Below are positions 27,226-53,906 of a stretch of 64,000 bases of DNA, one piece after another. The translations under genes and the position numbers were made by a program. The notes beneath the pieces were generated by a model that saw only the letters and a program-made list of their open reading frames with translations, was not told the origin of the DNA and searched no databases. Positions within the stretch are counted from its first letter, which is position 1, and every line of letters starts with the position of its first letter. This DNA comes from Nitrospira sp. (lineage in GTDB: Bacteria > Nitrospirota > Nitrospiria > Nitrospirales > Nitrospiraceae), in contig VGXF01000003.1 of assembly GCA_016873435.1 (NCBI GenBank), positions 62,001 through 126,000 on the forward strand, in the 5' to 3' direction.

Positions 27226-28269
27226 ATGATCGAAGGCTTCTGGTACGTGGCGTGCGAGAGCCAGGCAGTGCAAACGGGCCGCCCCGTCGCGGCCATGCTC
27301 TGCAACCGGCCGCTGGTCCTCTTCCGCGATGCGGCGGGCCGCGTGCGCGCGCTCGACGACCGCTGCTCGCACAAGGGCGTCCCATTATCGTCGGGCTGGC
27401 AAGAGGGTGATACGCTTCGCTGCCGGTTCCATGGGTGGCGGTTCGACGGCGGAGGCGCCTGCGTGGAAGTACCGGCACTCTCCGGCGCGGCGCATCCGTC
27501 GCCGGCCTCGGCCTGCGTACAGACGTTCCCGGTCGACGAACGCGACGGATGGATCTGGGTTTACGTCGGCAACGACCGCTGTCCCAAACCAACTGCCCCG
27601 CCGCCGACGCTGCCCACGCCGCCCGATGGTAGCCCGTTGGTGTCGGTGCGACAATCCGCCGTCGTGAAGGCCCGGTGGAATTTCACCGTGGACAGTCTGG
27701 CAGATCCGGCGCACGTGCCATTTGTCCACAACAAATATTTCCGTCAGCAGCAGGTGGCGAAGAAAAAGGAGAAGGTCTTCACCCGGCTGCCGTTGGGTTT
27801 CCGCACCGTGTCGCACAACGTGCTGCTGCCGGACACGTTCATTTTCCGGTTTCTCTCGCCGAATCTCGGTTCCGCCACAGCGACGGTGGATTTTGTCCTG
27901 CCCGGCATCCATTTCGAGAAATGGGAAATGGGCAATCGGTTTGCGTCCGTGATGCTGATCGCGACGCCGCTGACTGATAGGACGAGTCGACTGGATATCA
28001 GCGTCGGCTGGAATTTTCTCCGCTGGGTCCCGATCGGTTGGTTTGCCCGCCGCACGATGGCAACGACGATTGGCCAGGACCGCGAGGTGCTGGAACTGCA
28101 GGAGCAGGGCTTCGGTGGGAAGGAGGGCGGGATGCTATTGAATCTTGAGCCAGACCAACTGGTCGTCTGGTTCCGGCAGTTGCGAAAATACCATCAGGAG
28201 TGCCTGGCAGGCGCTGCGGCGCCCGCGCACCCGATCCCGGAAAAGACCACCTTGCGGTGGACGACCTGA
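27226..28269 (+). CDS. Rieske non-haem iron oxygenase, terminal component
   Basis: The product has 347 residues. The N-terminal Rieske domain binds 2Fe-2S through CSHKG and CRFHGW (Cys-x-His and Cys-x2-His). The catalytic domain carries the mononuclear iron ligands in SLADPAHVPFVHNKYF (two His; the Asp is further on). It resembles phthalate/pheophorbide-type or vanillate-like oxygenases that hydroxylate or demethylate substrates with a separate reductase. No reductase lies beside it; a Rieske ferredoxin is 31 kb away. The gene follows yceI closely. In-frame sequence after the stop continues open for 44 codons. Confidence 0.85.
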   Translation: MIEGFWYVACESQAVQTGRPVAAMLCNRPLVLFRDAAGRVRALDDRCSHKGVPLSSGWQEGDTLRCRFHGWRFDGGGACVEVPALSGAAHPSPASACVQTFPVDERDGWIWVYVGNDRCPKPTAPPPTLPTPPDGSPLVSVRQSAVVKARWNFTVDSLADPAHVPFVHNKYFRQQQVAKKKEKVFTRLPLGFRTVSHNVLLPDTFIFRFLSPNLGSATATVDFVLPGIHFEKWEMGNRFASVMLIATPLTDRTSRLDISVGWNFLRWVPIGWFARRTMATTIGQDREVLELQEQGFGGKEGGMLLNLEPDQLVVWFRQLRKYHQECLAGAAAPAHPIPEKTTLRWTT

Positions 28270-28504
28270 ACAGGAGACGGCGGGGACGATCACGAACGCC
28301 CCGCGTTTATCGAGTCCCTGCCCGAGCCCTGCGCGCCAATCGATCCGGTCCTCATCCTGTCCGACAAGGTGCTGGGAATGCGCGGCCTCCATTTCGGAGT
28401 CTAGCCCCCCTCAAGAGGGCCGTCATCCGTTTGACGAGTCAGAACTTGTCGAGTCAATCGACCGCCCTTGCCGGAGGCTGGAACGTCTTTGTACACTGGG
28501 ACCT
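28270..28504. other. Gap of 235 bases with an open frame continuing after the Rieske stop
   Basis: After the TGA at 28267, the same frame stays open to a TAG at 28402. The translation ends in protein-like text (IDPVLILSDKVLGMRGLHFG). It could be the residue of a longer oxygenase C-terminus, or chance. I see no strong promoter in this stretch. Confidence 0.25.
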
Positions 28505-29098
28505 ATGAAACATTTTGTTTGCATGGGTGTCGCCGGTCTGCTCTGGTTCGTGGATGCCTCCGGCGCTGCGGCGCTAGAGTTCACGGCCGACCAGATCACC
28601 AAGATCAACGGGCGCAACCGCACGGCCAACATCTACTACCGGGACGAGATGTGGCGGCTGGAGCACTACGATCCAGGACCGGTCAACATCACGATCGTGC
28701 GCAAGGACAAGCAGGTGATGTGGCTGCTGCTCTCGCGCATGAAGCATTTCAAGACGCTGCCCTACGATCCGGAGCAGGCCCCAAAAGTGGCGGAACGGCT
28801 GGAGGGCGAGATCACGCGGGAGGAGATCGGCACGGAAACGCTGGACGGACACCCCACGACGCTGTACCAGATCACAGTCCAACAGGGCGACCGGACGGCC
28901 ATCTATTATCAATGGTTAGCGACGGACATTCGTTTTCCGCTGAAGCTGGCCAGGCAGGACGGAAACTGGATCGTCGAATACCGCCACGTGAAATTGCGCG
29001 CTGTATCGGACTCCATGTTTCAACTGCCGCTGAATTTTCAACCCCTTGAGGAGTTCGACAAGGGCACGGAGAGAAAGCCGCCCTGGCAGACGATGTAA
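28505..29098 (+). CDS. Secreted LolA-fold-like protein (DUF4412-type)
   Basis: The product has 197 residues. A signal peptide (KHFVCMGVAGLLWFVDASG) precedes a beta-rich mature protein with repeated strand text: YYRDEMWRLEHY, TIVRKDKQVMWLLLS, TLDGHPTTLYQITVQQGDR, YYQWLATDIRFPLKLA. This matches the half-barrel of LolA/DUF4412 outer-membrane lipoprotein-sorting relatives in pattern, though not in firm identity. It is followed by the first SUMF1-fold gene in the same orientation, so both exported proteins may act together. Confidence 0.65.
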   Translation: MKHFVCMGVAGLLWFVDASGAAALEFTADQITKINGRNRTANIYYRDEMWRLEHYDPGPVNITIVRKDKQVMWLLLSRMKHFKTLPYDPEQAPKVAERLEGEITREEIGTETLDGHPTTLYQITVQQGDRTAIYYQWLATDIRFPLKLARQDGNWIVEYRHVKLRAVSDSMFQLPLNFQPLEEFDKGTERKPPWQTM

Positions 29099-29148
29099 AT
29101 TCGTATTCCCTTTCCAGCGCGTATCCATTTTTTTCAAGAGGGGTGTCG

Positions 29149-30078
29149 GTGAAAAGGTTTGTCGCACACATGGTTCTTCTGATGATGGGGGGGGTCACCG
29201 GTGCCGTCTGGGCGCTGGATGTGGCGGACATGACGATTGAGTGGACGCCGGAGGGGAAAAGGCTGGCGGCGGAGCGGATCAAGCTGCCGTCGCACGACGA
29301 GATGGTGCTGGTCCCGGCCGGGCCGTTTCTGATGGGGAGCGACAAGAAGGTAGATCCGAAGGCCTATCTGACCGAAATGCCCCAGCATACGGTCCATCTC
29401 GACGCCTACGAGATCGACAAACACGAAGTGACCACCGTGCAGTTCTTGAAGTTCGTCCTGGCGACGGCCCGCGCACCCTTGATCGACTGGCGCTACGACG
29501 GGGGTAATTTCCAGGACACGATGGTGAACCATCCCGTCATGCACGTGTCCTGGCAGGAGGCGACCGACTACTGCACCTGGGCCGGGAAACGGCTGCCCAC
29601 AGAAGCTGAATGGGAAAAGGCCGCGCGCGGGGAAGACGGGCGCATCTATCCCTGGGGCGACCAGCCGGCCGGTCTCTCGCGCGCCAACTTCGGCCGCGGC
29701 GGCCTGTCCGGACCGGTCCGCGACCGCCCGGAGCGCCTGATGCTCTATCCGCCGATCATATCCGTGGACAAGTACGAGAACGCCCTCAGCCCCTACGGCG
29801 CGCACCAGATGGCAGGCAACGTCGCCGAGTGGGTGGCCGACTGGTACGACAAGGAGTATTACAAAACGGCGCCGGACAAAAATCCGAAGGGACCCGAGAA
29901 GGGGACGCAGCGGGCCTTCCGCGGCGGCGGCTGGATCGACAGCACACCCAGCGTGCGCGTGGCGCAGCGCAACGGCACGGAGCCAACTACGAAGATGAAC
30001 TGGCTAGGATTCCGCTGCGCGCGGGACGTAAAGGCGGCCGAGCAGCCGGTCGGTCCTCAGGCGGTGGGTTTACGCTGA
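29149..30078 (+). CDS. SUMF1 / formylglycine-generating-enzyme-fold protein, likely non-catalytic
   Basis: The product has 309 residues with a signal peptide (FVAHMVLLMMGGVTGAVWA). The SUMF1 domain spans residues 45-285: VPAGPFLMGSDKK, MHVSWQEATDYCTWAGKRLP, TEAEWEKAARG, AGNVAEWVADWYD and FRGGGWIDS. Real formylglycine-generating enzymes carry two active-site cysteines after GGSW; here the text is GGGWIDSTPSVRVAQ, with none. It therefore probably acts as a binding or structural protein. I chose GTG 29149 because AAGAGGGG precedes it by five bases; GTG 29143 is also in frame. A second SUMF1 gene lies nearby on the other strand. Confidence 0.88.
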   Translation: MKRFVAHMVLLMMGGVTGAVWALDVADMTIEWTPEGKRLAAERIKLPSHDEMVLVPAGPFLMGSDKKVDPKAYLTEMPQHTVHLDAYEIDKHEVTTVQFLKFVLATARAPLIDWRYDGGNFQDTMVNHPVMHVSWQEATDYCTWAGKRLPTEAEWEKAARGEDGRIYPWGDQPAGLSRANFGRGGLSGPVRDRPERLMLYPPIISVDKYENALSPYGAHQMAGNVAEWVADWYDKEYYKTAPDKNPKGPEKGTQRAFRGGGWIDSTPSVRVAQRNGTEPTTKMNWLGFRCARDVKAAEQPVGPQAVGLR

Positions 30079-30912
30079 CCGTTTCTGTTTGAGCAGGATG
30101 CGGGCCTGCTCGCTGACTTCCTTGACGAGCGTGCCCATTTTGGGGTGGGACGGCTCGACATCCACGGGCCAGCCGTATTGCCGGAGCCGTTCACTGACGA
30201 CCGGCCCCACCGAGGCGACGACCACGCGTCTGAGGGCGTGTTTGAAGCGGTCGATGTTGCCGTCCTTTTCCAGCACCTGCATCACGTGGTCCACCTGTAC
30301 GGCGTTCGTGAGTAGCGCGATGTCCACCTGGCCGGCCATGATGGCCGTCAGGGCGTCGTGCAGCCGGTCCAGATTGTCCGGCAGCGCCCACTTGTAGACG
30401 GGGACGCGGATCACCGTCGCCCCCCGTTCGCGTAATTGCTCCAGCAGCTCGACATTGGTTGAGCCGTATTCCTGCAGCGCCACGCGCAGGCCCCGCACGG
30501 GCTGGTTCTCGTCGAGCATTTTCAACAGATCCCGCCAGGTGTTCGGTTCCGGCACGGTGAGTTGGCGCGTCAGGCCAAGGCTCTTCAACACGGCGGCAGG
30601 TTTCGGCCCGCGCGCCACCAGCGTGATCTGGCCGAGGGCTGCTTTGATCGTGTCGAGCGAGTGGCGCGTTTGCAGGACCCTCAGAAGGGTTTCGAAGCCT
30701 GCGCCGGTCAAGAGGATCAGCATGTCGACGTGGCCGTTCAGCAAACGCTCGCCGAACTCGAGCGCGTCGGGGTTGTCCTCCAGCGGCACCTCGCGCAGCG
30801 CGGGCGCAACCATCGGGCGGCCCCCCTGGCGTTCGATGAGTCCCGTCATCTCGGTGGCCAGGCGGCTTTCGAAGGACGCGACGGTCAGGTCCTCAAAACC
30901 CTTCGCGCTCAT
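30070..30912 (-). CDS. HemD-like (uroporphyrinogen-III synthase fold) protein
   Basis: The product has 280 residues in two alternating alpha/beta halves as in HemD: an N-terminal region with VASFESRLATEMTGLIERQ, a core with LLTGAGFETLLRVLQ, then ARGPKPAAVLKSLGL and, later, DIALLTNAVQVDHVMQVL and ASVGPVVSERLRQYG. HemD closes the tetrapyrrole ring of uroporphyrinogen III. The usual hemC/hemB neighbours are absent; instead it is translated from an ATG that overlaps the stop of a SUMF1 gene. It may be a second, specialised HemD or a HemD-fold protein with another role. Confidence 0.75.
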   Translation of the reverse strand: MSAKGFEDLTVASFESRLATEMTGLIERQGGRPMVAPALREVPLEDNPDALEFGERLLNGHVDMLILLTGAGFETLLRVLQTRHSLDTIKAALGQITLVARGPKPAAVLKSLGLTRQLTVPEPNTWRDLLKMLDENQPVRGLRVALQEYGSTNVELLEQLRERGATVIRVPVYKWALPDNLDRLHDALTAIMAGQVDIALLTNAVQVDHVMQVLEKDGNIDRFKHALRRVVVASVGPVVSERLRQYGWPVDVEPSHPKMGTLVKEVSEQARILLKQKRSA

Positions 30913-31718
30913 TGCGCTGCGTCGATTGCGCAGCGGAAGCCGGTGGATTCGTTGCGGATCGTCGGGGTGCTCTTGACGCGCGTGAAGATGCGGACCAGTG
31001 GTGTCTCGACGGCCCAGCCGGAACTGCGCAGCACCTTGTCCGTGCCGGTGGCAGGGCCAGGCGGATTTTTGGCCGGGCTTTTTTCGTAGTAGCGGTCTTC
31101 GTACCAGTCGGCGACCCATTCCCAGACGTTGCCCGCCATGTCGTAGGCGCCGTAGGGGCTCTTGCCTGCCTCGTAGCTGCCGACGGGCATGAGGGTCTTT
31201 TCGCCGATCCACTGCTGGTTGAAATTCAGATGCTTCGGGGTCGGCTCGACATTGCCCCAGGGAAATCGCCGGTCCTCGGTGCCCTTGGCGGCCTTCTCCC
31301 ATTCGGCTTCCGTCGGCAGCCGTTTGCCGGCCCACTTGCAGTAGGCGGCGGCGTCGTGCCAGTCCACATTGACCGCGGGCCGCTCGGCGACAGCGGGCGA
31401 CACCCGGCTGTCCTTCCACAGCGTGCGTGCGGGATTGGTCGGGTGCAGCGGGATGCGGTGGCCGGTCGCCTTCACAAATTCCAGGTAGCGTGCGTTGTTC
31501 ACTTCGTAGGCGTCGATGTAAAAGGCGTCGAGCTCGACCGTATGGCGCGGGTACTCGTCGCGCCCACCGTCACGGTCCCCGTGGGGCACGCCCATGGGGA
31601 AGGGACCCGCTGGCACCAGGACCATCGGGGCCCCGTCTTTGCTGGCCGGTTGCGCAGCCTGCGCGGGAGATGGTCCACTGAGCAACAGCATGAGAAGAAT
31701 CAACAACGATGCGTGCAT
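30909..31718 (-). CDS. SUMF1-fold secreted protein, translationally coupled to the HemD-like gene
   Basis: The product has 269 residues with a signal peptide (HASLLILLMLLLSGPSPA). The SUMF1 domain follows: VPAGPFPMGVPHGDRD, VDWHDAAAYCKWAGKRLPT, EAEWEKAAKGTEDRRFPWG, MAGNVWEWVADWYEDRYY and LRSSGWAVETPLVRIF. The position of the two catalytic cysteines of true formylglycine-generating enzymes holds Val-Glu-Thr-Pro, so it is probably not catalytic. The ATG at 31718 is preceded by AGGAG. Its TGA overlaps the ATG of the HemD-like gene (ATGA). The two products go to different compartments unless the HemD-like protein is also exported. Confidence 0.87.
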   Translation of the reverse strand: MHASLLILLMLLLSGPSPAQAAQPASKDGAPMVLVPAGPFPMGVPHGDRDGGRDEYPRHTVELDAFYIDAYEVNNARYLEFVKATGHRIPLHPTNPARTLWKDSRVSPAVAERPAVNVDWHDAAAYCKWAGKRLPTEAEWEKAAKGTEDRRFPWGNVEPTPKHLNFNQQWIGEKTLMPVGSYEAGKSPYGAYDMAGNVWEWVADWYEDRYYEKSPAKNPPGPATGTDKVLRSSGWAVETPLVRIFTRVKSTPTIRNESTGFRCAIDAAQ

Positions 31719-31823
31719 GGGACTCCTGTTGCGTGAATCAATCTTGAGCAGATGGTACCATAACGTTTCCGGTTGACGCCATTCGACCCGCATCATATAA
31801 CAATTGGGCGAGGGAATTACGTC

Positions 31824-32246
31824 ATGGCGGAGGCAGGTATCCGGGGCATGCGGCATCTGGCCTTGAAGGTCACAGACCTGCCACGCTCGCGGAAATTTTA
31901 CGAAGAACTTTTCGATATGCGCACTGTCTGGGAACCGGACCCGGATAACGTCTATCTGAGCTCGGGCGTCGACAACCTCGCGTTGCATCAGATTCCGGCT
32001 GCCGAGATTGCCGCGCATCGTGCGGTAGAGCATCACTGGCTGGACCATCTCGGATTCATCATGGAGTCGCCGGCCTCGGTGGACCGTCTGTTGAAACAGG
32101 CCGTGCGGTTCGGCGCCCCGATCGTCAAGCAACCGCAGCACCATCGAGACGGCAGCTATTCGTTTTACATGACTGATCCGGATGGCACCGTCGTGCAGGT
32201 CCTCTACGAACCCACCATCAGCAAGCAAACCTTCAAGACTGAGTAG
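31824..32246 (+). CDS. VOC superfamily (glyoxalase / dioxygenase fold) protein
   Basis: The product has 140 residues with one VOC fold: GIRGMRHLALKVTDLPRSRK with the first metal-ligand His, a second His in HWLDHLGFIME, and SYSFYMTDPDGTVVQVLYE with the terminal Glu. Members include glyoxalase I, methylmalonyl-CoA epimerase and dioxygenases; the substrate is not decided here. The ATG at 31824 gives a natural start before the first strand. Next comes the metallo-beta-lactamase-fold gene, only seven bases away. Confidence 0.85.
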   Translation: MAEAGIRGMRHLALKVTDLPRSRKFYEELFDMRTVWEPDPDNVYLSSGVDNLALHQIPAAEIAAHRAVEHHWLDHLGFIMESPASVDRLLKQAVRFGAPIVKQPQHHRDGSYSFYMTDPDGTVVQVLYEPTISKQTFKTE

Positions 32247-32253
32247 CCAAGCC

Positions 32254-33882
32254 ATGAGCGTCTGGGATTCTTTCAAGAGCGACCAGTGCGTCGGCCTTGC
32301 GCCGTGGGTCTGGATTCAACTGGAGAGTCCGGACGATCCCGGCCCCTTCCCCTACGTCGGCGGCGTGGATCCGGCCGTCGTGGCTGCGCTGCACGAAGCG
32401 CACAATCTGTTGCAGAGCGGAATCGATACGATCATCGGCGACGTGTTTTCGCACCGTGCCCCCCTGGATGAGCCGGCGCGCCGGGCCCGAGTGGAGGATG
32501 CCTATGCCGAACTCGTGAACTCGCGGCCGCACCTCCAGCAGCACATCCAGTGCGGGCGCAAGCCCGACGGCACTTTTCAGTGGGACTTCGCGAAGGATCC
32601 AACCAAATCAGCCACGATGACCTATATGGGCCTGCACGTCTTTCACGCGGTCGCGCGGCAGAAGATCCCCATTGGGTTCGAACGGCCGCTCGCGCCCACG
32701 ACGGGGAAATTTCTGGGTTACCTGGACGGCACGCACCGCGCGGCAGAACTGAAGACTATCGCGCTGGCCTCGGGCCGCGAAGGCGCGCGGCTCCTGACCC
32801 AGTTGATGGAAGTGCTGCACAAGCACGAGTGCCTGAGTTTCTCCGCGAAGATGACCGTGCGGGACCGATGGCTGGAACGGACGCGCGATCAGGACATGGT
32901 CCATCTGGGCCACGCGGCCTTGATGTACCGGCAAGCGGACCGGTTTTTTTTGTTCGATCCGTGGCTGCTGCCATGGCTCGCGGAATCGCCCGTGCCGTCC
33001 CTTTGGGGCCGGCTGCTGCCGCGCCCCGCCGCGATTTTTCTCACGCACGACCACGACGACCACGTGGACCCGCGCACGCTGCTGCATCTGCCCAAGGACG
33101 TCCCTGTCGTCATTCCGAGCAAGCGCAACCGCACTGCACTTTTTTTTGATTATCCAGCGCTGCTGCGCGAGCTGGGTTTCGGCCAGATCGTCGAACTGGC
33201 GCATGGGGAGAGCTGGTCGTTCGATGGAGGCGCGGTCGTCTCGGTGCCGTTTTATGGCGAGGATCCCTGCGACCTCGCCATGCCCCGCAACTGTTATTTG
33301 ATCAACGACCGCGGTCGGAACACGCTCGTCCACGTTGACAGCGGGCCGACCAACGACGGCAAATCGGTTGTGAAAGAGGGTGTAATGGGCGATCTGGTGA
33401 AGACATACGGCCCGGTATCCACGCTTTTCGCTTCGCAGCAGCAATTATTGGAACTGCGCACTCATGCGGCGCATGCCTGCCTCTCCCATCCGGGCCGCTG
33501 GCTCGAAACCGGGGAGAACGGCTATCTCACGAACACCTATTTGTCTGAACTGGCCGCTGCCGCGCAGGCAAAACTCTTTGTCTCCTATGCCACTGGCGGG
33601 GCAGACTGGTATCCGGACCACCTCTCGTTCATGTTCAGCCAGCGAAATCCGGCGCGCACGGCGCTGCTGACGGCACATTGGGAACGGCCGGAGCAACTCA
33701 AGGACCTGCTGGCCCCGAAGGGCTGCGGCTATCACTACACACAGGCACTGGATATTTTCCGCACGCAGGCTGATGGTGGCACCGAGGTCGTGTCCGAAGC
33801 TGATGCGCTGTCGCCGCTTTCGCTCTACCGATTGGACTGCGGCGATCCGCCGTTCATGAAACCGGGCCCGGGGAGGCGCTGA
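32254..33882 (+). CDS. Large metallo-beta-lactamase-fold protein with an N-terminal extra domain
   Basis: The product has 542 residues. Residues 1 to about 225 are not recognisable to me ([20 protein letters not shown] near the start). From about residue 235 a metallo-beta-lactamase core of the UlaG/NAPE-PLD-like type appears: [14 protein letters not shown] as the HxHxDH motif and [16 protein letters not shown] with a further ligand region. Such enzymes hydrolyse lactones, phosphodiesters or related bonds. Its stop overlaps the start of the epimerase gene by one base, so coupling is likely, but a functional link is not shown. Confidence 0.75.
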
Positions 33883-48153: not shown

Positions 48154-48580
48154 AGCATTCCAGCTGGCGCTGGGTCTTTTTGCGCTGCTCGCGGTGACGC
48201 CAGCTGTGCTCTCTGAGGCCGCGCCGCCTCCGGCGCATCTCAAGGAATATGAAATCACCTTCGACGCCACGGCGCTCCATCCGCCGACGAGGTGGCAGGT
48301 GCCAGGCATCACACCGCTAATCCTGACGCTCGATCCGGACTACACCGACGCCTACAAGAGCACCGACAAGCGGACGCTGATGCTCAAGCCCGGCTCCTAT
48401 AAGTTCGGCACCTTCAGCTTCGATTTTCCCTTCCAGCTCACGCTGGACGGCAAACTGAACTTTGCGAAGTCCCTCGACCAGTGCGTGGCGGGCCGCGACA
48501 CGCAGACGCTCACGGTCAAGTGCAGCCGCACGTATCCATACGGCGGTCGGCGCGATTACGACTACAAAGACGCGCAGTAA
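48143..48580 (+). CDS. Small secreted protein of unknown function
   Basis: The product has 145 residues with a signal peptide (AFQLALGLFALLAVTPAVL). The mature part contains ITFDATALHPPTRW and a beta-like region around LMLKPGSYKFGTFSF, ending with two Cys and DYKDAQ. I recognise no family. It overlaps the phosphodiesterase-fold gene and precedes the HEAT-repeat cluster by eight bases, so it may be co-transcribed with it. Confidence 0.6.
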   Translation: MGTKAFQLALGLFALLAVTPAVLSEAAPPPAHLKEYEITFDATALHPPTRWQVPGITPLILTLDPDYTDAYKSTDKRTLMLKPGSYKFGTFSFDFPFQLTLDGKLNFAKSLDQCVAGRDTQTLTVKCSRTYPYGGRRDYDYKDAQ

Positions 48581-48588
48581 GGCTCGGC

Positions 48589-49962
48589 ATGGCGCAATCC
48601 GTTGACGATCTCCTGGAAGCGCTCGAAGACGTGGACGACGCGACTCGCGAGGAGGCCGCCAAGGCCCTCGCTGAACGTGCCGACCCGAAAACCCTCGACG
48701 CTCTGCTGAACGCCGTCGGCGACGACTTCTGGGCGGTGCGGGCGCATGTGGGCTGGGGCGTTGCGAAGATCGGCGGGCCGAAGGCGGTGGCCGCGCTGAT
48801 CACGCTCTTTAACGATCCGATCATGGAAGTGCGCAACGAGGCGGTGGCGTCCATGGCGCACCTGGGCCGCGGCACCGTGGACCAGCTGATCGCCTGTCTC
48901 AAGGACGAGAAATGGCGCGTGCGCGAGCATGCGGCCAAGGTCTGTGGCGAGTTGAAAGATGCCCGGGCGGTGGACGCGTTGATCGCCGTGTGCCGCGACC
49001 GCGACGGGGCGGTCAAGAGCGCGGCGGCCGAGGCGCTGGGGAAAATCGGTGACCCCAGGGTCGTCCCGGCGCTCATCAAGCTGTTCCGCGATTCCTCCAA
49101 GATCGTCCGCGAAACGGCGGGCACCGCACTGGTGGCTATCGGAGAGCCGTCCATCGATCCGCTGATCGAGTGTTTTAAGGACAAGGATTTCGTTGTCCGC
49201 TGCCACGGCGCCCGCGCGCTGGGGGGGATGACGACCGACTACCAGATCGGCCGTGCCTGGGCCAGAGACGCCAAGGTGGTGGACGCGCTGATCGCCGCGT
49301 TGAAAGATTCCGACCGGGCTGTGCGTGAGGATGCCACGATCGCGCTGGGGATGATCGGCAGCCCGCGCGCGATCGATGCGCTGATCGAGGCCATGAAGGA
49401 CGGGGCAGTGAAGCGGCACGCGATCATGTCGCTCGGTATGATCGGCGATGCGCGCGCGCTGCCGGCGGTGATGAACGCGCTGAAGGGCAAGGGTATTCGG
49501 CAGGATGGTACGCCGACCCCTGGCTGCATCGTGAGCGAAGACGCATTTATTAAAGAGGCTGCCGCCACGGCGCTGGGCCATTTTCGCGATCCCCGCGTGA
49601 TTCCCGATCTCATCATGCTGCTCAAGGATCAAAACTTAAGGGAGCGGGCGGCACCATCGCTCGTGCTCATCGGCGACACGGCCATCGAGCCGTTGGTGGC
49701 GTTTCTGCACGATCCGAAGGCCTCGGAAGTGGAATCGGAGGGGGAGCGAGTCGTGTCGTTTGCCACGGCGCGCCTCACGGCTGTGGACGCGCTCAAGCAG
49801 ATCACGCTCGACACACTCAAGAAGTTGGGTTGGGAGCCACCGTCCGGCAACGAAGAATGGGTGGTGGATTCGAGCCGCGCGGACAACCTCAGGACCCATC
49901 AACCCCTCGGTGACACGGGACGGTTCGGCCCCACAGGCGATATCCCAAAAGGCAGGGTCTAG
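48589..49962 (+). CDS. HEAT-repeat protein 1 of the cluster
   Basis: The product has 457 residues, made of about ten HEAT (PBS-lyase-type) repeats of around 31 residues: for example KALAERADPKTLDALLNAV, KVCGELKDARAVDALIAVC and EALGKIGDPRVVPALIKLF. HEAT repeats form superhelical scaffolds that bind proteins. An irregular insert is present near residues 210-240 (DYQIGRAWARDAKVVD). The protein ends after LKKLGWEPPSGNEEW with a long polar tail that the other members lack. It starts eight bases after the small secreted protein. Confidence 0.9.
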   Translation: MAQSVDDLLEALEDVDDATREEAAKALAERADPKTLDALLNAVGDDFWAVRAHVGWGVAKIGGPKAVAALITLFNDPIMEVRNEAVASMAHLGRGTVDQLIACLKDEKWRVREHAAKVCGELKDARAVDALIAVCRDRDGAVKSAAAEALGKIGDPRVVPALIKLFRDSSKIVRETAGTALVAIGEPSIDPLIECFKDKDFVVRCHGARALGGMTTDYQIGRAWARDAKVVDALIAALKDSDRAVREDATIALGMIGSPRAIDALIEAMKDGAVKRHAIMSLGMIGDARALPAVMNALKGKGIRQDGTPTPGCIVSEDAFIKEAAATALGHFRDPRVIPDLIMLLKDQNLRERAAPSLVLIGDTAIEPLVAFLHDPKASEVESEGERVVSFATARLTAVDALKQITLDTLKKLGWEPPSGNEEWVVDSSRADNLRTHQPLGDTGRFGPTGDIPKGRV

Positions 49963-50060
49963 CGGTTGCTAACCCGCTCGCTGACCGGTTTCCCCTCTGG
50001 TTTGACCCCCTAAAAAAGTCTGTGTTACCGTTTGAATCCGATTTAGTGCGCGCGGAGTAA

Positions 50061-51149
50061 ATGGGTATGGGTGACACGGTGCTCGAACAGATTGCCGCGT
50101 TGCAGGACGGCGACTGGGCGGTCCGCGAAGAGGCGGCCCAGCGGCTGGGCTCCTTCCGCGACCACCGGGCGGTGGAACCGTTGATCGTTGTCCTGCGAGA
50201 CTCCGATCGTGCCGTGCGGGAGGCGGCCATTGCCGCTCTGACTGCCCTTGGCGCACCGGCGGTCGAGTCGCTCGGGGCCTGTCTGCGCGATGCCAATCTG
50301 ATTGTGCAGGAATCGGCCGCGGCGATCCTCTCGGCCATCGGCGACGCGCGCGTGGCGGACGGACTGATCGCGTCGCTGGCCAGCGCCGATTGGGTGGTGC
50401 GCATGCACGCCGCTAAGGCGCTGGGGCGCATCGCTGAGGCCCGCGCAGTGCCGGCGCTTGTCCCGCTGTTGCAAGACAAGGTCAAGGCCGTGCGCGAGGA
50501 GGCCGGCACCGCGCTGGCCCGACTCGGCCCGGCGGCGCTCCCGGTGCTGGTCGAGGCGCTCGGCCATGCGGAATGGCTGGTGCGGCTCCACGCGGTCGAA
50601 GCATTGGGTAAGACCAAGTCGCCGGAAGCCGTCGCGGCGCTGCTCCAATTGCTCTTCAACGACCGCGACTCGTCGCTCAAGGAGGATGCCGTGCGGGCGC
50701 TCGGCGAAATCGGCCACGTGAGCGCCGTCGAGTTTCTGCTAACAGCGATGAAGGAGCCGGGCTTGCGCCCACTCGTGGCCGAGGCGCTGGGGAAGATCGG
50801 CGATGCGAAAGCGGTGCCGGCTCTTGTGGCCGTGGTGGAAGGCACGAGCCAGCCAGACCTGAGCCGTGTCGTGACCGGCTGCGGGGACAAGTGGACAGAG
50901 GAGATGGCGGTTCAAACCGCGGCGACCAAGTCGCTCGGCCAAATTCGGGATGCCTCGACCATTCCCGTCCTTGTGGCGGCGCTGAAAAATACTGTGACGC
51001 GGGCGGAAGCCGCTGCGGCTCTAGTGGCGTTCGGCCAAGCCGCGATTCCGCCCCTCCTATCCGTTTTAAAGCACGAGCAGGACGACAATATTCTGTTTCA
51101 CGTCAAGGAAGCATTGACAGAGTTGGGCTGGAGGCAGGGCCGGATTTAG
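50061..51149 (+). CDS. HEAT-repeat protein 2 of the cluster
   Basis: The product has 362 residues with HEAT repeats from the start to the end: EEAAQRLGSFRDHRAVEPL, KALGRIAEARAVPALVPLL, EALGKTKSPEAVAALLQLL and EALGKIGDAKAVPALVAVV. It closes with VKEALTELGWRQGRI, the same Leu-Gly-Trp cap as other members. The gene follows protein 1 after 98 bases, which could hold its own promoter (TTGACC at 50002 with a weak -10). No enzymatic domain is visible. Confidence 0.9.
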   Translation: MGMGDTVLEQIAALQDGDWAVREEAAQRLGSFRDHRAVEPLIVVLRDSDRAVREAAIAALTALGAPAVESLGACLRDANLIVQESAAAILSAIGDARVADGLIASLASADWVVRMHAAKALGRIAEARAVPALVPLLQDKVKAVREEAGTALARLGPAALPVLVEALGHAEWLVRLHAVEALGKTKSPEAVAALLQLLFNDRDSSLKEDAVRALGEIGHVSAVEFLLTAMKEPGLRPLVAEALGKIGDAKAVPALVAVVEGTSQPDLSRVVTGCGDKWTEEMAVQTAATKSLGQIRDASTIPVLVAALKNTVTRAEAAAALVAFGQAAIPPLLSVLKHEQDDNILFHVKEALTELGWRQGRI

Positions 51150-51283
51150 GCGGAATCTATTTCAAGAATACATGCATATGCAAGAAAACATGCGCATCCT
51201 GTGTAAAGGTTTCTAGCCGCTCAAGTGGGTTCTAGCTCGTGAATTCGCTAGGTGGGTTTTGAGAATCCCCAGGTAGGCAGGCG
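51150..51283. other. 134-base gap with short repeats inside the HEAT cluster
   Basis: It contains a 10-base palindrome TGCATATGCA (51173-51182) and two related motifs, AAGTGGGTTCT and AGGTGGGTTTT, about 28 bases apart. It is AT-rich compared with the genes on either side. A promoter for protein 3 may lie here, but I see no clear one. Confidence 0.35.
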
Positions 51284-52387
51284 ATGGCCAAAGAGCCGAT
51301 TGAAACGTTGATACCCGAGCTGGTCCACGAGGAGGACTGGCGACGCATGCGCGCCATGGCAGCCTGTGTCCAGGGGGGCACAAAGGCGGTGGTAGCTCTG
51401 CTCCAGGCACTGGCCACGGCGCCGCCTCCCTTAAAGGTAGAGATCGCCGGCATGCTGGCACGCTTGAAGGATCCGAAGGGCGGCGTGCCGCTGGTGGGGC
51501 TTCTGCGCGATCCAGATGAGACGGTCTGCAAGGCGGCGGCGCTCGCGCTTGAGCAAATGGCCGGCGTGCTGGATGCGGCGGCGGCGGAGGCGCTGGTGCA
51601 CGACCTCTCGTCCGCGCAGGAGGAGGGGTCGCGCCAGATCGTGACAAAGCTGATCGGCGCCATGCCGAACGCGGTCGGCCCCGTCTGCGCCATGCTCAAA
51701 CATGGCGACCCGGCCGTCCGGCAGACAGCAGTTGCGATGCTCGACCACCTGCTGGAGCCCACGTCGGCCGATGCACTGGTGGATGCGATGATGGATCCGG
51801 CGCTCCGCGAGCCGGCCACGCGGACACTGAAAAAGCTCAGCGCGATCCGCGACCGCATCGAGAGCGTCTTCACCATGCTGCGCAACATCGAGGGCTCGGC
51901 CGAGCGGGAAGAGGCGCGCATGGCGACGGTGATCGAGCTACTGCCGATCGGCCGGCCCAGCGTGGATATCCTGATCGAAAATTTGGAGGACGACGACTGG
52001 TTGGTCCGTGAGGCGGCAGCGGATTTGCTGGGCAAGATTGCCGACCTCCGGTCGGTGGAACCGCTGATGGAACGCCTCCGAAAGGACAAGGACACGGGCG
52101 TGAAGGAGCTGGCGCTCAAGGCGCTCGGTCTGATCGGCGACGCGCGGCCGTTGGAGATCTATATCGAAGCGATTCCGATCCGGCCGCTGCGCGTCTTCGC
52201 GATGGAGGCGCTGGCCAAGATCAAGGACGTGGAAACGCTCCGGCCCTATCAGGATCTCTTTGAGCGATTGAAAACGGACCGGGACGGGCTAGTCGCGTAC
52301 AATGCCGGAATGATCGTGGACAAGCTGGCCGCGCTGACGATGCAGGCGGAGGTCCAGGCTGGCGAGGGCGGAGGAGAGGAGACATGA
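51284..52387 (+). CDS. HEAT-repeat protein 3 of the cluster
   Basis: The product has 367 residues. The first half has divergent HEAT-like helices (MLARLKDPKGGVPLVGLLR); the second half has clearer ones (DLLGKIADLRSVEPLMERL, KALGLIGDARPLEIYIEA). It does not end in the Leu-Gly-Trp cap found in proteins 1, 2 and 4, but in a long Glu/Gly-rich tail. The start ATG at 51284 follows a gap rather than overlapping a gene. Its last codons overlap the next gene by four bases (ATGA), so they are translated together. Confidence 0.88.
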   Translation: MAKEPIETLIPELVHEEDWRRMRAMAACVQGGTKAVVALLQALATAPPPLKVEIAGMLARLKDPKGGVPLVGLLRDPDETVCKAAALALEQMAGVLDAAAAEALVHDLSSAQEEGSRQIVTKLIGAMPNAVGPVCAMLKHGDPAVRQTAVAMLDHLLEPTSADALVDAMMDPALREPATRTLKKLSAIRDRIESVFTMLRNIEGSAEREEARMATVIELLPIGRPSVDILIENLEDDDWLVREAAADLLGKIADLRSVEPLMERLRKDKDTGVKELALKALGLIGDARPLEIYIEAIPIRPLRVFAMEALAKIKDVETLRPYQDLFERLKTDRDGLVAYNAGMIVDKLAALTMQAEVQAGEGGGEET

Positions 52388-53148
52388 GCGACGCAGTACA
52401 GCGGGAACGGATCGAGCAGCTGCTCTCGGCCCTGCGGGACGAGAATGAGGCCCTGCGCGGGCACGCCATCGCGAGCTTGGCGCAGATTGGCATGCCGGCG
52501 CTACCGCATCTCATTAATATGCTGACGGACGAGGACGCGGTCATCCGCGAGGCGATCACGAGCGCGATCGTGCGGATCGGCCCGGAGACCGTGGAGCCGA
52601 TTATCGCAGCGCTGCACGAAGACGAATGGTCTGTGCGCGAGCAGGCAGCCTCGGCCTTGGGCAAACTTAAAGATCCACGCGGCGTCGAGCCGTTGATCAA
52701 GGCCTTGAAGGATCGTGACGGCGCGGTGCGGACCGCGGCGGTCTGGGCATTGGAACGCATCGGCGATCCGCGGGCGGTGCCCGGGCTCGTGGACGCGCTC
52801 AACGACAGCCTCGTGCGCGAGGATGTGGCCCGCGTGCTGAAGAAAATCGGCGACGTGCGCGCGGTCGAGGCACTGATCGAGGGCCTAAACGGGAACAACT
52901 GGATGGTGCGCCGCCACGCGGCCGAGGCGCTGGGGAAAATCGGCGACGTGCGCAGCTTCGATTCGCTGGTCGGGGCGCTTCAGGATGAGGACTGGCTCGT
53001 CCGGCGTAACGCGGCCGAGTCGCTGGCCCGGCTGGGCGACAAGCGGGCGGTGGATCCCCTCCTGCCCTTGTTGGAAGACGAAAATGAGATGGTGCAGGAA
53101 ACGGCCGAAGGCGCGCTTTCGAGTTTGGGGTGGAAACGCAAGGAGTAA
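52384..53148 (+). CDS. HEAT-repeat protein 4 of the cluster
   Basis: The product has 254 residues with eight regular HEAT repeats: SALGKLKDPRGVEPLIKAL, WALERIGDPRAVPGLVDAL, RVLKKIGDVRAVEALIEGL and EALGKIGDVRSFDSLVGAL. It ends with LSSLGWKRKE. The start codon overlaps the stop of protein 3. It is the most regular of the five and has the layout of CpcE/PBS-lyase-like proteins, but no phycobilin context is present in the window. Confidence 0.92.
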   Translation: MSDAVQRERIEQLLSALRDENEALRGHAIASLAQIGMPALPHLINMLTDEDAVIREAITSAIVRIGPETVEPIIAALHEDEWSVREQAASALGKLKDPRGVEPLIKALKDRDGAVRTAAVWALERIGDPRAVPGLVDALNDSLVREDVARVLKKIGDVRAVEALIEGLNGNNWMVRRHAAEALGKIGDVRSFDSLVGALQDEDWLVRRNAAESLARLGDKRAVDPLLPLLEDENEMVQETAEGALSSLGWKRKE

Positions 53149-53186
53149 ACGTACTACAGTAGTACCTTTGCGAAGGGATTTACTCA

Positions 53187-53906
53187 ATGGCAAACGAAAC
53201 GCCAGAACAACCGGTTAAGCTGATCCAGATTGGCCCGAAAGGCGGGGCCAAGCAAGACGGGTTTAATCTCGTCACGGAAAAAGTCGTCGCCGTTAACCCG
53301 GCCGCCAAGCAGCTTGAAGTGGAGCTCCTGGCGTATGACGGCAAAACCGTCGTGCTCGATGTGGCCGAGGAAGCGCTCGCCGATCTTCAGAAGGTCAAGC
53401 CGGGCGATGGGGCGACGATCCGCGTCGTCGAGGAAAACGGCAAGCGTGTCGCCAAGAGCTTTAAGATCCGTGCGAAGGATCCAAACACCGCCAAGGCCGA
53501 CGCGATGCTGGTGGATCTCAAGGATACGCACTGGCTAAACCGTAAATATGCGGCTGAGTCGCTGGGCGAACTAAAGGATGCGCGTGCCGTCGGGCCGCTG
53601 GTGGAGGCGCTGACCGACGAGGTAGGCGACGTGCGGCAGCGGGCCTACGATTCGCTAATTAAGCTGGGGGGCGCGGCGGTCCCCTCGCTGGTGGGACTCC
53701 TGGTGTCGGATGAAGACGAGCTCCGGCAGTCGGCCACGGAAATCATCCGCAAGATCGGCAAGCCGTCGGTCGAGCCGCTGGCCATCGCACTCGAGAGCGC
53801 GGACGACCGGCTCAAGACTCGTATCATGAAGGTGCTGGACCGGATGGGGTACAAGCCGAAGACGACGACGGCGGAAGTCGTCAAGCAGATCGGGCAGCAG
53901 ACGTGA
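53187..53906 (+). CDS. HEAT-repeat protein 5 of the cluster, with an N-terminal beta domain
   Basis: The product has 239 residues. Residues 1 to about 100 form a beta-rich domain (GFNLVTEKVVAVNPAAKQL, KPGDGATIRVVEENGKR) that looks like an OB or SH3-like binding module. HEAT repeats follow (ESLGELKDARAVGPLVEAL, DSLIKLGGAAVPSLVGLL), and the protein closes with VLDRMGYKPKT, a Met-Gly-Tyr version of the cap. The additional domain could anchor or recruit the cluster's scaffold. It starts 38 bases after protein 4 and ends before the convergent ugd gene. Confidence 0.85.
   Translation: MANETPEQPVKLIQIGPKGGAKQDGFNLVTEKVVAVNPAAKQLEVELLAYDGKTVVLDVAEEALADLQKVKPGDGATIRVVEENGKRVAKSFKIRAKDPNTAKADAMLVDLKDTHWLNRKYAAESLGELKDARAVGPLVEALTDEVGDVRQRAYDSLIKLGGAAVPSLVGLLVSDEDELRQSATEIIRKIGKPSVEPLAIALESADDRLKTRIMKVLDRMGYKPKTTTAEVVKQIGQQT

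Follow-up and report, generated by a model that had tools for sequence, protein, structure and literature searches.

Within a 64,000-nucleotide stretch of a Nitrospira sp. genome (hereafter the window), a gene for a stand-alone HemD-like protein encodes an extra HemD protein and not the housekeeping uroporphyrinogen III synthase (U3S), and it represents an uncharacterised HemD subfamily that is kept order-wide in Nitrospirales. The reading favoured here, at a probability of roughly 0.4, is that the product is a cytosolic tetrapyrrole-binding accessory or sensor protein and that the SUMF1-fold genes on either side of it are syntenic neighbours; a second active synthase comes next. The locus is composed of the following features:

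28505–29098, plus strand: small protein of the F7 family with a signal-like N-terminus, recognised by synteny (it follows SUMb in relatives); the whole ORF, 28145–29098, has no Pfam match
29143–30078, plus strand: SUMb, a SUMF1-fold gene convergent with the HemD-like gene (FGE-sulfatase, PF03781, 202.6 bits; signal peptide by eye)
30070–30912, minus strand: HemD-like gene, 280 aa (HEM4, 133.5 bits; start read from the DNA; without signal sequence)
30909–31718, minus strand: SUMa, a SUMF1-fold gene upstream of the HemD-like gene and overlapping it (PF03781, 196.3 bits; signal peptide by eye)
31824–32246, plus strand: divergent VOC (glyoxalase-superfamily) gene (PF00903, 60.4 bits; start by homology, the ORF opening at 31773)
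32254–33882, plus strand: metallo-beta-lactamase-fold protein of 542 aa, distantly akin to CmlA (start by homology, the ORF opening at 32182)

As a preliminary description of this DNA had stated, the HemD-like gene is flanked by SUMF1 genes on opposite strands, and the one on the minus strand overlaps it by an ATGA, common to the stop of SUMa and the start codon of the HemD-like gene (spacing −4, read from the DNA); SUMb and the HemD-like gene also overlap tail to tail, at 30070–30078. The same description saw no other haem-synthesis gene, and this holds for the 47 window ORFs that were scanned with Pfam, none of which belongs to another tetrapyrrole-synthesis family. Chance is ruled out by the strong family scores and by conservation across the order. 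Most analyses of the HemD-like protein used 30070–30906, which is the protein minus its first two residues. Elsewhere in the window, five HEAT or PBS-lyase-like repeat proteins are encoded in succession (48481–53906, plus strand).

The 1.72 Mb genome, 98.5% complete, has two PF02602 matches: the window gene (cut-off 27.5 bits) and C2:167119–167811, which lies 1.1 kb from hemC and is the C-terminal half of a fusion protein, CobA-HemD. A second hemD accompanied by hemC, whose existence the preliminary description had proposed to check, is thereby located, and the idea of a single hemD at the window site, with the HemD-like gene as the genome's only HemD, is rejected. Since a separate CobA-HemD stands beside hemC, the HemD-like protein is extra and not the housekeeping synthase. 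Clear orthologues of it, at E below 1e-60 in a single-protein search, are present in 48 of 61 relatives (the genome itself included), which are not independent of one another. A canonical HEM4 copy occurs in 56 of the 61; among the 48 carriers it is present in 46, and the two that lack it are 72–73% complete. Every carrier that is at least 90% complete (40/40) has both the HemD-like gene and CobA-HemD, and 10 of the 61 relatives have the canonical copy without the HemD-like gene. Four relatives (G008, G029, G030 and G034) show yet another HEM4 match, their third, within an ORF of about 500–550 aa that is perhaps a second CobA-HemD fusion. Across 21 genomes (210 pairs), median pairwise identity is 58.5% for the HemD-like protein versus 55.2% for the canonical HemD domain and 72.6% for the CobA half of the fusion, which points to purifying selection on the HemD-like protein similar to that acting on the synthase domain.

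When the search was extended to the phylum with a profile (148 genomes), strong matches (E below 1e-128) came from 36 genomes, all in the family or order of the window organism, of which the listing shows 37, and from none of the 111 others; the rest of the matches had lower scores, in keeping with canonical HemD. Where hits from this sample show apparent stop codons, these probably lie before the start, as L079, the one locus read, opens just there. A set of 80 loci, which repeats in part genomes already compared, includes the cultured N. moscoviensis, where the locus is present (L110). Two orthologues, L153 and L148, are found on contigs titled Acidobacteria and Nitrospinota, where mis-binning is possible, or transfer.

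The best NCBIfam model for the HemD-like protein is PRK07239.1, at 148.5 bits and under the cut-off of 273. In a tree of 36 sequences, the Nitrospirales HemD-like proteins group with Deinococcus proteins encoded next to nirD (support 100/99), and this group stands apart from canonical HemD (100/100); in this tree the Nitrospirales paralogue clade itself reaches only 93/76, the placement of a long Thermus row is poor, and the composition of four rows is unusual. A recent duplication of the local CobA-HemD is rejected by the tree as the origin of the gene. The protein belongs to the same branch as actinobacterial NnaR, Thermus U3S and the Deinococcus nirD neighbour, which is its nearest outside kin. 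The latter, annotated as uroporphyrinogen-III synthase, is likewise stand-alone and is 38% identical over 95%, but it is encoded with nirBD, whereas the window gene keeps company with SUMF1, VOC and CmlA-like genes. The predicted structure (pLDDT 94.7) is that of a stand-alone, two-lobed HemD fold, the best structural match being the U3S of Thermus thermophilus (Z 23.5, rmsd 5.6, 251 residues), to which there is also a profile match (E 7.7e-16). The two share the fold but differ in that identity is about 24% and in that the housekeeping role in the window organism belongs to the CobA-HemD fusion. Tyr171, which we take to be the catalytic tyrosine of uroporphyrinogen III synthase, is kept in 25 of 25 HemD-like orthologues, and the same tyrosine is kept in the NnaR HemD domains (6 sequences examined). 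With this presumed catalytic residue invariant, sequence alone therefore cannot decide between a synthase and an accessory or sensor protein.

It is against this background that a second active uroporphyrinogen III synthase must be weighed, one that would serve a separate pool, for example sirohaem for nitrite or sulfite reductase; this is possible, although less probable than the accessory or sensor reading. The whole HemD fold, its likeness to the Thermus enzyme and the invariant Tyr171 would all suit such an enzyme, as would two ORFs with sirohaem-type reductase domains in the organism's own genome. Among the outside kin, those of Deinococcus adjoin nirBD, and a Thermus plasmid copy has genes for a nitrite/sulfite reductase and for a sirohaem ferrochelatase next to it, which points in the same direction. 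A tblastn search of plasmids gave 23 records with a match, Deinococcus best; all 7 of the Deinococcus records have nirD at or next to the matching stretch. Fifteen outside regions were fetched, and of the 8 that carried annotation, 5 have a nitrite or sulfite reductase gene close by. In the window, no sirohaem-related gene adjoins the HemD-like gene. Moreover, the HemD-like protein never replaces the CobA-HemD fusion in the carriers of at least 90% completeness, and the NnaR HemD domain keeps the same tyrosine and yet is reported to be inactive.

NnaR combines a HemD domain with an OmpR-type winged helix (PRK07239). Its HemD domain belongs to the same branch, and the RGPK and late R/K-M/L-G motifs are, by eye, common to both proteins. 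NnaR differs in carrying a Trans_reg_C winged helix, seen in the Tsukamurella protein, whereas the window protein consists of one domain only; Tsukamurella NnaR also scores 514.3 bits to PRK07239, far above the window protein, which lies nearer to the Deinococcus proteins in the tree and is encoded outside any nitrate/nitrite gene cluster. Of two mycobacterial reports, one states that NnaR of Streptomyces is without HemD activity (PMC6277429); the other describes the HemD domain of NnaR as inactive with an unclear role and states its function as open (PMC11162112). A sensing role for the domain has been proposed (PMC11162112, PMC6277429). With no nitrite-use gene in the window locus and no DNA-binding domain attached, a direct NnaR-like role is impossible as such.

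Gene neighbourhoods were compared in the window and the loci of 39 relatives, loci cut by a contig end being counted as unreadable. Of 39 readable genomes, 32 have the divergent VOC gene next to the HemD-like gene, and 30 of 37 have the CmlA-like gene there, so that both are steadier neighbours than SUMF1, which stands directly before the HemD-like gene in 25 of 39. The product of 32254–33882 matches CmlA (4jo0) over about 180 residues (residues 213–396; phmmer E 5.1e-10) and Lactamase_B_2 at 24.1 bits, under the cut-off of 27; it is a distant relative of the diiron oxygenase CmlA, kept beside VOC in most Nitrospirales. A DnfA-type hydroxylamine oxidase was dropped as a candidate for this neighbour, DnfA being kin of CmlI and AurF and not of CmlA (PMC9478400). 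It is conceivable, yet unlikely, that the HemD-like protein works in a metabolic unit with the VOC and CmlA-like proteins and binds a non-tetrapyrrole ligand: both neighbours persist in lineages without SUMF1 at the locus, but both are missing next to the HemD-like gene in 7 of 39 readable genomes, which come from families f2 and f4 and from part of f3, and a conserved divergent neighbour can reflect a mere shared promoter. In one distant family (L074:7428–8846), the HemD-like gene follows directly on a glutamine synthetase gene, and downstream of it lies a gene whose product has four PCP_red repeats.

Turning to the SUMF1 genes, the preliminary description was right that neither product has the cysteine pair of formylglycine-generating enzymes (FGE). 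Both proteins share the SUMF1 fold with FGE but lack the catalytic cysteines together with the loop between them: when SUMa was aligned to FGE 6muj and SUMb to FGE 5nxl, both cysteines were missing in each case, as was the CxxxxC stretch of the solved chains. Such loss is the rule here, since none of the 11 SUMF1 domains in the 1.72 Mb genome, read at the catalytic-loop stretch, has the pair. Among relatives, only the later GFRC cysteine is found in 66 of 66 SUMa-orthologue and 47 of 47 SUMb-orthologue blocks, counts that comprise pattern-readable rows from overlapping sets of loci, unreadable rows having been dropped beforehand. An FGE identity is rejected for the flanking proteins, the pair being absent in both and in the readable orthologues.

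The special coupling between SUMF1 and HemD-like proteins that had been suggested is not supported, although the two genes do co-occur in relatives. Over the 61 genomes, 39 have both, 9 only the HemD-like gene, 3 only SUMF1 and 10 neither (Fisher p 0.0002, ignoring the kinship of the genomes). In 43 of 66 measured loci, a set that partly overlaps the 39 readable genomes, they overlap or lie no more than 54 bases apart, and the convergent SUMF1 gene is present in 19 of 35 readable loci. These figures would fit a single working unit of SUMF1 and HemD-like proteins, but of the 14 genomes that lack an adjacent SUMF1 gene, 10 carry its orthologue at another site, and the orthologue is missing from 9 of the 48 carriers. 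In addition, both SUMF1 proteins look destined for export and the HemD-like protein has no signal sequence, which would put them in different compartments; and among the 15 regions fetched around outside HemD-like kin, the 8 with annotation show no SUMF1 gene nearby. Such a unit is improbable. The association is genuine but loose; the SUMF1 genes, whose products look exported, are common neighbours and probably not working partners of the HemD-like protein. No literature joining Nitrospira, uroporphyrinogen-III synthase and formylglycine-generating was found, and Nitrospira was absent among the matches listed for literature pairing Nitrospira, sulfatase-modifying factor and formylglycine.

In the favoured accessory or sensor reading, the HemD-like protein would still bind a linear or cyclic tetrapyrrole between its lobes, with hydroxymethylbilane, uroporphyrinogen III or a sirohaem precursor as candidate ligands, and would report or hand on tetrapyrrole supply for nitrogen metabolism instead of taking the housekeeping synthase's place. 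The SUMF1 proteins, which look exported and are not FGEs, may be periplasmic binding or scaffold proteins without action on tetrapyrroles, and their genes may share an ancestral locus with the HemD-like gene, at times as one operon. The presence of two HEM4 genes, selection like that on the synthase, the placement on the NnaR branch, the nirD-linked kin and the HemD domain of NnaR, described as inactive, all argue for this reading. Against it count the invariance of the presumed catalytic tyrosine, the filing of Thermus U3S, placed on the same branch, as an enzyme, and a link to nitrite that is confined to distant kin.

Some orthologues have a different domain make-up. In one locus (L068:8076–10562, minus strand), a single frame joins the HemD-like domain to an APH kinase and an AAA_33 domain; two relatives have the APH/AAA_33 gene as a separate ORF that follows. 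Three further HemD-like proteins (L063:9157–10425, L070:8955–10220 and L073:9561–10832) have about 130 extra N-terminal residues, one of them with a weak four-helix-bundle match (23S_rRNA_IVP) below the cut-off. These fusions, few and from assembled genomes, would fit a domain that binds a ligand and serves more than one kind of output.

A bolder proposal, speculative and rather unlikely, is that the non-catalytic, stand-alone HemD fold serves as a tetrapyrrole gauge that ties the supply of sirohaem or haem precursors to nitrogen metabolism and works with the VOC and CmlA-like oxygen-dependent proteins; it would be a sensor of the NnaR kind that has shed its DNA-binding domain and that some lineages have linked to other output domains. 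In practical terms, caution is advised in that not every HEM4 match in Nitrospira should be annotated as haem synthesis. An order-wide, stand-alone HemD relative that is kept beside a normal synthase is a clean protein with which to ask whether the HemD fold senses tetrapyrrole.
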